Of a DNA stretch of 64,000 bases, positions 55,163 to 58,599 are shown piece by piece. Below the pieces are notes generated by a model. That model was not told the origin of the DNA and ran no database searches. It saw nothing but the letters and a program-made list of their open reading frames with translations. Source of the stretch: Trigonopsis variabilis (lineage: Eukaryota > Ascomycota > Trigonopsidomycetes > Trigonopsidales > Trigonopsidaceae); assembly GCA_003707065.3 (NCBI GenBank), contig PPXM03000002.1:124001-188000 (forward strand), read 5' to 3'. The position numbers and the translations under genes were made by a program. Position 1 is the first letter of the stretch. Each line of letters starts with the position of its first letter.

Positions 55163-56739
55163 ATGGCTAAAGAGCGGTTTTTCTCGACTCCTGGGCGGTC
55201 TAAAAAGCGATCCAGATCATCTGCTGGATTGAAAAAGGCAGCTAACGGAGATGCGAGTGAAAAGACCGAGAGATCTGTCAAAAAAGCTCGAGCAGACGAT
55301 GATATTCTTGCCAGTGATGAAGAAATTACATCGGAGGAAGAGCTAGAAGGAATAGAGGAACACGAAGGAATTGAAGAAAGTAGTGAATCCGAAGATGAAA
55401 CTACAGCCGACAAACGTCGCCGACTTGCTAAACAGTATTTAGAGAATCTTCAGACCGAGATGGGTAAGTCATAGAATGCTCTCTGTTGCATTTGTTTCGA
55501 TGAAAGACTAACGTTTCAGAAGAGACTGAGTTTGACGCAAAAGAAGTCGAGCAAGATCTATTGGCAGAAAGGTTACGACAAGATGTGGCTGAAAAAGGAG
55601 GTCGGATATATAATTTTGTAGGAGATCGATTGGGAGACCACACGGCAGCAACAAAGAAGATGCCATTGTTCATCACGGGTATAGCTTGCTGCTATCCTTA
55701 TGCCTACACGGTATCAAAGGAAATGGTGCTCACCAAGTGGAATATTGCCAGTCCACTGACTGGCGGTCATGAGTTCAAGAAATTATTACATACACGAGGA
55801 GTCAGGAACGCAGACCCATCATTCGAGGGACATTTGGACGATATTTTATGCATCGCTGTTAGTAGTTCGGGGAAGTTCGTTGCGACAGGAGGAAAAGATC
55901 ATCGCATTATCATATGGCATGGAGACAATTTGGCGCTGTTGAGAGTGTTTACGCAGCATCGCGATCAAATCACAGGGTTAGCATTCCAGCGCGATTCCCA
56001 CAATCTTTTTTCATCCTCGGCTGATCGAACCGTGAAATGCTGGGCGCTGGATAGTCTGGCTTATACTGAGACTTTATTCGGCCACCAAGAAGCGCTTACA
56101 GGTATAGATGCTCCCACCAGTGAACGGTGTGTGACGGTAGGCGGGCGAGATCGAACTGCTCGACTGTGGAAGATTGCTGAAGAGTCCCAGCTAGTCTTCC
56201 GTGGAGGAACAACCGCTCCTGCCGAGAACGGGCAACGGTATGCTGAAGGAAGCATTGATTGTATTGCCATGCTGGATAATCAGCTCTTTGTCACTGGATC
56301 CGATAACGGGTCAATCACACTATGGACTGTCAAAAGGAAGAAGCCCGTGTATATTGTTCCAGTGGCTCATGGTTTAGAGGACCCTTTAGATCCTCAGTCC
56401 TATTCAGCCGAGCAGAACCAGCTTGAGGTTGTCGCTCCTCCTCCTCAGCCCAGATGGATAACCTCTGTTCGTGCTATGCCAGGAAGCGACGTTTTTGTCA
56501 CCGGGTCCTGGGATGGGGCCGTCCGGATCTGGAAACTGTGGGATAATCAGCGAGGATTCGATCTAGTCAAAGTAATTGATGGTCTCAAAGGTGCAGTCGT
56601 GGGTCTGTCTGTCTTCGAGGCAAATAAAAAACTATGCATAGCTGCAGCGACTTCTCGTGAGTTATCCTACGGGCGATTTATCAAAGTTAAAGGGGGCAAG
56701 AATGCTCTGAGATGCATTTCGGTCGACTATAACAGATAA
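55163..56739 (+). CDS. RRP9: U3 snoRNP WD40 protein Rrp9 (U3-55K)
   Basis: Two exons, 55163..55463 and 55520..56739, encode 506 residues. A 56-nt intron (GTAAGT ... GACTAACGTTTCAG) joins LENLQTEM to EETEFDAKEVEQDL. The acidic, Lys-rich N-terminus (DEEITSEEELEGIEEHEG) is followed by the conserved ERLRQDVAEKGGRIYNF region and about six WD repeats, for example FEGHLDDILCIAVSSSGKFV, TGGKDHRIIIW, DRTVKCW, DRTARLW, SDNGSITLWTV, WDGAVRIWKL. Rrp9 binds the U3 B/C motif and acts in 18S rRNA processing in the nucleolus. Confidence 0.96.
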
Positions 56740-56932
56740 TGTATATTATGTATTTCTAGGGATTTTGAAGCGATTCTGTTAGTAGACAGGGGTTCACTCT
56801 GTAGTATCATTAACCGGGTGGAGATCCATGGAGATAGGGCCGGGTTACAAAACACCGTCCAAAAGTATCGATACAACCCACACTTGCTATCGAAATAATC
56901 CCCGCTCTTGTCACCCTCGACCCCACTTGACA

Positions 56933-57685
56933 ATGTCATCTACGTTCAAGAGATTTAATAAATTCCTGTTTTCAAAGGACTTTTTGAGGTAAGTTCAGTA
57001 TTTACGTTAATGTGGTCGTGCGGAGCGGGTTGCGTTTGTGTCAGACAAAGCTGGTTGAGCAAAATTTCCTTGGTATCTATCTATCGAGCCCCCCCCACAC
57101 AGCTAAACTTTTTAGTGAATAGTAATGCTGACTTGATAGATGTAAGTTTGATTGATATCATAGGCTTGGATATATACATATGGGAGAATTGGATCACAAT
57201 TGAGTCTTGAAGGCGAGATTTTGCACGAGTGCAGATGCTCAAGGGCATTCAGTCGTGTGCTACTTGTCCAGAGAGCCTTTTGGGATTCCTTGGAGATATA
57301 TCACAAGCGACTGTTTGATCAATACTAACGATAGATATCTGCTCGACTCATTTCTGGGGTATTGTTGCCTTTAGGGTTTTACTGACTTGGAGGTCCGGTG
57401 TCTAACTTCGGAATTCCTTTAGCGGCTGTCCTCGACACACAAAAGAGCCCTGACCTTATTTCAGGTCCAATGACCGGATCTCTGATTGTTTACTCTTTGG
57501 TTTTCATGAGATATTCGATGGCTGTGACTCCTAAAAATTACCTGCTTTTCTTATGTCACTTCACCAACGAATGCGCTCAGCTGGTCCAAGGCTACCGATT
57601 CGTTCGCTTCCAGTACGACAAAGAAAAGGATCTCAAAATACGTGAATCAGGCCTGACGGCAGGAACGGCGGCTGGTTCTGCTTGA
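56933..57685 (+). CDS. MPC1: Mitochondrial pyruvate carrier subunit Mpc1
   Basis: My model has exons 56933..56988, 57140..57141, 57335..57358 and 57393..57685, 124 residues. Exon 1 encodes FNKFLFSKDFL; exon 3 gives (Y)ICSTHFWG and exon 4 GPVSNFGIPLAAVLDTQKSP, DLISGPMTGSLIVYSLVFMR, YSMAVTPKNYLLFLCHFTNE, CAQLVQGYRFVRFQY, a near-complete Mpc1. The frame between exon 1 and the CSTHFWG block is two nt short unless the AT at 57140-57141, which has an acceptor GATAG before it and GTAAGT after it, is kept; then SKDFLRYICSTHFWG matches family SKDFRDYLMSTHFWG. Mpc1 forms the inner-membrane pyruvate carrier with a second MPC subunit. The two upstream introns, 151 and 193 nt, are unusually long. Confidence 0.9.
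57140..57141 (+). other. MPC1: Two-nucleotide micro-exon (AT) of MPC1
   Basis: The sequence GCTGACTTGATAG/AT/GTAAGTTTG places a full branch site and acceptor directly before, and a consensus donor directly after, the two bases. It completes codon 19 (AGA, Arg) and starts codon 20 (TAT, Tyr). The only other way to close the frame would be a non-GT donor. Confidence 0.55.
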
Positions 57686-57756
57686 AGATCTTTCAAAAAC
57701 CACAATTAAGTCACTCTTAAACAGTTACAGAAATCAATTAAATTTACACCTTAATC

Positions 57757-58599
57757 TTATTGTTTCTGGAGCTTCGTTTCCCTAGGTTCCGTATACAGCA
57801 CCCTTCCTACTTGGCCAATACAGACCGAGCTAAGGAAAAGCACGCTGGCCATACTGGCCACGACTGCAATGTAATCATCCTGAGCGCCGTTGGCTCCAAA
57901 CAACCCCACGCTGGCCCATAAGACGGCCAAAAGAAACCCGTTGACCGTGGCATCAAATATCCACCATGCCATGATGTTAAACATGACAAGCGACAATGCC
58001 AATTGTGCTGCTGATGCCCACTGTAGATGCCTGATCCCATAGGCGATGCCTACAAACGCACATGTACTCTTGACCACTCTTGACCACTGAAGTCGGGTAT
58101 TCTTGCCCCGGATTCCCCCTGCAGGGAACGCCTGATCAAGAATAGGAAGCATTGTACCCAAAACTACCGCAAATAAACCCCAAGAAATGCCTTGGTTACC
58201 GAATTGAAAGACAGCATCAGCAATTCGGCTCCTGTCACGCAGCCGTGAAGCTGCCCCACTATAAGCAAGACCAACCATGAAAAGGATGACCGAGCGAAAG
58301 CAAACAACACCAACCTTCGAGAAAAACCCGGTCGAAGAATCCTCAAAGACATTAGAAAGGGATCGTTGGTGACTTCGCAAAGGAGATGGATCGTAGCCGA
58401 GCCTTGTCCCTGGAATTCGTGATGACTCTGTACCTTGCGAATGAGGGATTAAATCTTCTCGTCGCCGTGGCCGAGGGATAGAAGCATCATTGAGATCTGA
58501 CAGGCCTGCAGCAGATCCAAAGAAACCAAAAAGAGCTCCTCGAGCAATAGAAGCGGACGACTGTGACCGGGAGAGATCAGGCCTATCGGGACCAGACAT
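57757..58599 (-). CDS. INS1: INSIG-family ER membrane protein
   Basis: One exon, 280 codons. The first ~95 residues are Ser/Arg-rich and disordered (phospho-sites likely). Six hydrophobic segments follow from ~100 (VVCFRSVILFMVGLAYSGAA, GISWGLFAVVLGTMLPILD, FVGIAYGIRHLQWASAAQLAL, AWWIFDATVNGFLLAVLWAS, DYIAVVASMASVLFLSSVCI). The block TRLQWSRVVKSTCAFVGIAYG is equivalent to INSIG (R..LEW..V.R..A.FVGIN), and WWIFDATVNGF to WWTFDRSRSGF. INSIGs retain SREBP-SCAP or HMG-CoA reductase in the ER in response to sterols; in S. pombe Ins1 controls Hmg1. ERG2 is also in this window, but not linked. Confidence 0.85.
   Translation of the reverse strand: MSGPDRPDLSRSQSSASIARGALFGFFGSAAGLSDLNDASIPRPRRREDLIPHSQGTESSRIPGTRLGYDPSPLRSHQRSLSNVFEDSSTGFFSKVGVVCFRSVILFMVGLAYSGAASRLRDRSRIADAVFQFGNQGISWGLFAVVLGTMLPILDQAFPAGGIRGKNTRLQWSRVVKSTCAFVGIAYGIRHLQWASAAQLALSLVMFNIMAWWIFDATVNGFLLAVLWASVGLFGANGAQDDYIAVVASMASVLFLSSVCIGQVGRVLYTEPRETKLQKQ

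Follow-up and report, generated by a model that had tools for sequence, protein, structure and literature searches.

We identified a candidate two-nucleotide coding exon in MPC1, the gene for mitochondrial pyruvate carrier 1, of the ascomycete Trigonopsis variabilis. The dinucleotide AT at positions 57140-57141 of the analyzed window (the whole 64,000-nt stretch, bases 124001-188000 of contig C2) is very probably a real coding exon that would be included constitutively, a reading drawn from the genomic sequence. AT has its own acceptor and its own donor, each with a branch-site or donor partner, and it is needed for the reading frame; these are among the features by which micro-exons shorter than 3 nt are recognized. 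The MPC1 exon would join an already known class of ultra-small exons, which are rare but have been described before. Coordinates of the gene and of the features around AT are given in Table 1.

The 124-aa product predicted with AT matched profile PF03650 at 121 bits (curated cut-off 27). Its best match among solved structures was Mitochondrial pyruvate carrier 1 (9mnw_A and others, E 4.4e-34, phmmer), and the top four PDB matches were, by name, MPC1, an MPC1 chimera or MPC1-like. We take the solved chain 9mnw_A to be human MPC1. Two places in the whole 11.35-Mb genome (15 contigs) matched the MPC family; the window gene was the sole MPC1 among them, which makes a dead copy less likely. The other match, on contig C3 (G000:C3:257001-257315), was considered as a second MPC1 copy and dropped, since we read it as MPC2. 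In that gene (L001 1396-1932, minus strand), a 178-aa open frame runs through the family match without a break, whereas MPC1 has three introns. The upstream neighbor of MPC1 is a WD40 gene; Rrp9 is its best relative among solved structures. No related sequence was found in the scanned prokaryote and viral contigs.

Table 1. Features of the MPC1 locus (positions in the window; scores in bits from matrices built on introns of the same genome; a slash in the text marks a splice junction)
Feature	Position	Strand	Description
MPC1 exon 1	56933..56988	+	56 nt; MSSTFKRFNKFLFSKDFL + AG; SKDF aligns ungapped to SKDF of solved MPC1
Intron 1	56989..57139	+	151 nt; donor GTAAGT 8.75, branch CTGAC (A at 57131) 7.71, acceptor TAG 3.21 bits
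Candidate 2-nt micro-exon AT	57140..57141	+	Third base of Arg19 and first base of Tyr20; best of 24 in-frame middle exons
Intron 2	57142..57334	+	193 nt; donor GTAAGT 8.75, branch CTAAC (A at 57328) 8.66, acceptor TAG 3.21 bits
Exon 3	57335..57358	+	24 nt; last two bases of Tyr20, ICSTHFW, first base of Gly; aligns to LMSTHFWG of solved MPC1
Intron 3	57359..57392	+	34 nt; weak donor GTATTG 1.37 bits; branch CTGAC 7.75 bits
MPC1 exon 4	57393..57685	+	Ends at stop codon TGA
Intron-1 stretch complementary to both acceptor junctions	57078..57088	+	Possible docking site, noticed post hoc

Exon 1 ends in ...TTTTTGAG at 56988 (SKDFL followed by AG), and a GTAAGT donor begins at 56989. The first acceptor, ...GCTGACTTGATAG, ends at 57139, the second donor, GTAAGTTT, begins at 57142, and the second acceptor, ...TACTAACGATAG, ends at 57334. 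The genomic string is GATAGATATCTGC, and an mRNA with the micro-exon would read GAGATATATCTGC. The position of AT between an acceptor and a donor, its coordinates and the lengths of the two flanking introns were as described in the first-pass annotation of this DNA. Three introns are crowded within 26 coding bases, and the very short exon 3 is bounded downstream by an intron of 34 nt whose donor is weak. Intron 1 also contains a run of eight C (57089-57096), at which the assembled length could be off; the coding frame is unaffected by it.

The need for extra coding sequence comes from the reading frame. Exon 1 leaves two codon bases (AG), and the acceptor at 57334 opens exon 3 (ICSTHFWG) in the wrong frame. 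Including AT makes the coding sequence 375 nt long (124 aa and a stop codon), compared to 373 nt with a stop at codon 31 when it is left out; the two added bases complete an Arg codon and start a Tyr codon at the join. The product with AT aligned to solved MPC1 without a gap from residue 8 to 104, through the join (SKDFLRYICSTHFWG over SKDFRDYLMSTHFWG, phmmer), and Arg-Tyr across the join would restore the spacing between SKDF and STHFWG of the solved protein. Pfam scores hardly separated the alternatives (118.7-120.2 bits vs 121 with AT), because the matches of the alternatives just begin some residues further into the profile; the predicted Arg-Tyr pair is supported by the alignment to solved MPC1 and not by the Pfam score.

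We further enumerated single introns that combine GT, GC or AT donors at 56940-56992 with AG or AC acceptors ending at 57290-57359. This gave 12 in-frame solutions, each with an AC acceptor and/or an AT donor, and a single GT-AG intron accounted for 0 of the 12. Acceptors located further upstream for such an intron run into an in-frame TGA at 57316-57318, as read from the sequence. The earlier proposals that MPC1 needs exactly two extra bases, and that AT yields Arg-Tyr at the join and a coding length divisible by three, were borne out by the frame mismatch, the gapless alignment and the lack of an in-frame GT-AG solution among the single introns enumerated.

The same protein would be obtained if a short AT repeat had contracted, such that exon 3 lost its first two bases in the genome or in the assembly (GATAG/ATATATCTGC to GATAG/ATATCTGC). 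The gene would originally have had a single ordinary intron of 346 nt here, and it would now be newly broken or, if the error lies in the assembly, still intact. Since AT followed by exon 3 reads ATATATC, a slip in the AT repeat yields an identical product. However, two or three AT units make a very short repeat, and the well-placed branch site, acceptor and donor around AT would have to be there by chance, the strict form of this arrangement (defined below) occurring at a rate of about 6e-5 per 346 nt of one strand. A miscounted T5 run in exon 1 (4, 6 or 7 T), again read from the sequence, would leave the frame unrepaired. We regard such a loss as improbable.

One non-canonical AA-AG intron would also give the identical 124-aa protein, without any micro-exon, if exon 1 kept GT (GAGGT/AAGTTC) and was joined to 57335 (AGG TAT ATC). 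This option passes over a perfect GTAAGT in favor of an AA donor, which an intron model that requires GT cannot score, and the strong paired sites at 57139/57142 have no explanation under it; it appears highly improbable. One narrowly worded literature search for AA-AG introns returned no match, which says little. The predicted cDNAs of the micro-exon and AA-AG models (GAGATATATC and GAGGTATATC, respectively) are one base apart, with A or G at the third position of the Arg codon. Under either a loss of AT or an AA-AG intron, the paired splice signals that flank AT would have arisen by accident; the quality of these signals was analyzed as follows.

Splice-site matrices were derived from a set of 28 introns (33-61 nt, median 40.5) in this genome, none of them from MPC1. 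They are those of 63 candidates that passed filters on length (at most 62 nt), branch distance and score. The 254 kb of sequence in which the candidates lay comprised the window and 19 of 20 10-kb loci; locus L012 was dropped (8000 of its 10000 bases were N). When the candidates were sorted, real introns above 100 nt could not be distinguished from false ones. Both donors flanking AT scored above the reference median (8.75 vs 7.37 bits), and so did the branch sites of intron 1 (7.71) and intron 2 (8.66; reference median 6.68). Two features count against the micro-exon: both acceptors are weaker than the reference median (3.21 vs 4.65 bits), and the exon side of the second donor (GAT) is off consensus, with a full-donor score of 6.96 vs 9.69 for the first donor. 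The flanking introns had been described as 4-6 times the local norm; they are indeed longer, but the factors are 3.7 and 4.8 relative to the median of the 28 introns, which is itself biased short because the set stopped at 62 nt. The accompanying suggestion that the added length gives room to two spliceosomes is conjectural.

A longer middle exon elsewhere in the 346 nt, or several tiny ones, might repair the frame as well. Single middle exons of up to 90 nt were enumerated, and 24 were in frame, such that 23 further candidates exist besides AT. However, AT reached 19.7 bits and the best of the others 12.5 (a 23-nt exon at 57123-57145), and 22 of the 23 add residues within the stretch that is gapless against solved MPC1, which makes this alternative highly improbable. 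The only other 2-nt in-frame option, TC at 57253-57254 in the second AGNNGT of the region, scored 10.7. That AT is by far the top-scoring middle exon supports its earlier interpretation as a micro-exon.

The AT site was also rare in the genome. Among the 1638 AGNNGT sites on the two strands of the 254 kb (508 kb in all), only the AT site itself reached 19.7 bits. An equally good exon of 3n+2 length (up to 60 nt) occurred in one of 3000 random 346-nt genomic segments; this segment was L025 5611-5956 (plus strand). A strict motif (CTRAC, 3-11 bases, AG, two bases, GTAAGT) occurred in at least 4 places in 11.35 Mb on both strands, compared to at least 20 for the pattern read backwards; some parts of the genome sequence read N, and the counts may be too low for that reason. 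The other three places were antisense within open frames of 695, 567 and 581 aa, and by our reading they arose by chance. The strict motif was picked after the site had been seen, and it therefore serves as a supporting test rather than an independent one. Versions of the motif with zero or one base between AG and GTAAGT occurred in at least 6 places elsewhere in the genome. Two of these are antisense within open frames of 321 and 493 aa, one falls inside a 343-aa frame on the sense strand, another sits where a 506-aa sense frame ends, and the remaining two (L030 and L031) are near no long frame. Judged by eye, the L030 and L031 sites look like ordinary exon ends, and a micro-exon was seen at none of the six places.

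If AT is an exon, both flanking introns would be complete, with a canonical U2-type donor, a branch site and a TAG acceptor each. Two spliceosomes are unable to occupy sites two bases apart at once, and therefore the two introns are most likely removed stepwise. In the simplest order, intron 1 would be removed first, joining exon 1 to AT and leaving GAGAT/GTAAGTTT, which contains a full donor. This donor could then be used again with the second acceptor, in a process similar to recursive splicing that would leave 2 nt instead of 0. Skipping of AT would lead to the stop at codon 31. Two related arrangements were considered and rejected. A stwintron does not fit, as both donors are whole, two bases remain between the introns, and a stwintron supplies no bases; a 0-nt recursive splice site (ratchet point) does not fit either, as the order is AG/AT/GT and the acceptor AG does not abut the donor GT.

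RNA folding differed between the two introns. Only 2 of 200 shuffled sequences folded as well as or better than intron 2 (z -2.58), and its predicted shape pairs the two ends of the intron, the donor with the branch region, which would bring the donor closer to the branch site. No folding excess was detected in intron 1 (88 of 200 shuffles as good or better, z -0.06). The stretch 57078-57088 within intron 1 is complementary to both acceptor junctions, exactly over 9 nt to 57329-57337 (second acceptor) and with one mismatch in 10 to 57132-57141 (first acceptor). The 9-nt match was reached by 2 of 500 shuffles, a figure obtained post hoc for one among many possible pairs. A search for an Rfam RNA hosted in a long intron found none up to E 5 in 56500-57800 and none in the window at the gathering cut-off.

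Several tiny exons with similar properties have been described. According to PMC9929638, exon 2 of human MPC1 is a constitutive 4-bp micro-exon, TACG, flanked by introns of over 12 and 3 kb. Splicing persisted in minigenes where this exon was reduced to 2, 1 or 0 bp, a precedent for the fungal site, and the 4-bp and 0-bp constructs yielded both lariats. The human and fungal micro-exons lie in the same gene, near the N-terminus and after exon 1, neither has a length divisible by three, and both are constitutive (presumably so in the fungus). They differ in length (4 vs 2 nt) and in their flanking introns, which are 151 and 193 nt in the fungus. Human GRK6 and SEPT7 are named in that report as genes with a 2-bp exon (PMC9929638). 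The first-pass annotation had described exons below 3 nt as known in only a few genes of any eukaryote; they are rare as it held, but not unheard of.

We examined whether the human and fungal micro-exons could be orthologous. Within the first 25 codons of the solved MPC1 protein, TACG fits at Tyr12/Val13 or Ser24/Thr25, and we presume the latter placement, AG/TACG/CAC. TACG misfits the Asp20/Tyr21 column of the solved protein, where the fungal exon falls, and orthology was rejected. Therefore, these appear to be two separate micro-exons in one gene, with introns at different places.

Among fungi, the accessible text of PMC12940212 describes a 1-nt exon in Fusarium CYP621A, supported by SRA reads and called the first in a fungal gene; it is shared by 20 Fusarium orthologs, and its intron stretch is 139 nt (median 56). 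This case resembles MPC1 in that a fungal nuclear gene has an exon below 3 nt, deduced from the frame and a conserved motif, in an overlong intron stretch. However, the CYP621A exon is 1 nt long, lies in a P450 gene and is found in 20 orthologs, whereas the MPC1 site is known from one genome. We found no earlier report of a 2-nt exon in a fungus in the open-access literature searched. Plant APC11 and VPS55 have 1-nt exons (PMC4674806, PMC8831610). The APC11 exon is below 3 nt and constitutive, as the MPC1 exon would be, and VPS55 keeps strong GTRAGT donors; the plant exons differ from the MPC1 site in their length of 1 nt, in their conservation throughout land plants and in the RNA-seq and RT-PCR data that support them (PMC4674806, PMC8831610). 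Stwintrons of fungi, according to PMC7138796, are removed stepwise, and an origin by donor duplication has been proposed for them. The MPC1 site is similar in having two nested or adjacent introns at one place and donors that are near-copies of each other, but it has no split donor and keeps two exonic bases.

The two MPC1 donors (GAGGTAAGTT at 56986-56995 and GATGTAAGTT at 57139-57148) may be a trace of such a donor duplication. Together with the two acceptors, both of which read GATAG/AT, they suggest the gain of a new intron at a point two bases into an old exon 3. A broader and distinctly speculative view, to which we give little credence, is that MPC1 repeatedly gains micro-exons (4 nt in animals and, independently and a few residues away, 2 nt in this fungus). 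The fungal exon would then be an obligatory step of recursive splicing, possibly guarded by pairing of 57078-57088 with either acceptor, and its skipping, which would cut the protein after 30 residues, may be an off-switch for mitochondrial pyruvate entry.

The most interesting point is that a micro-exon may have arisen twice in one gene, in human and fungal MPC1. Exons of one or two bases probe the lower limit of recognition by the spliceosome, and they are missed by gene finders; models of MPC1 in fungi should be viewed with caution, as they may be misannotated as broken or truncated. If the AT exon is real, T. variabilis, with an 11-Mb genome and introns of ~40 nt, would offer a small and experimentally handy system for studying how introns two bases apart are removed, and the host gene would add to its interest, as animal MPC1 also has a micro-exon.
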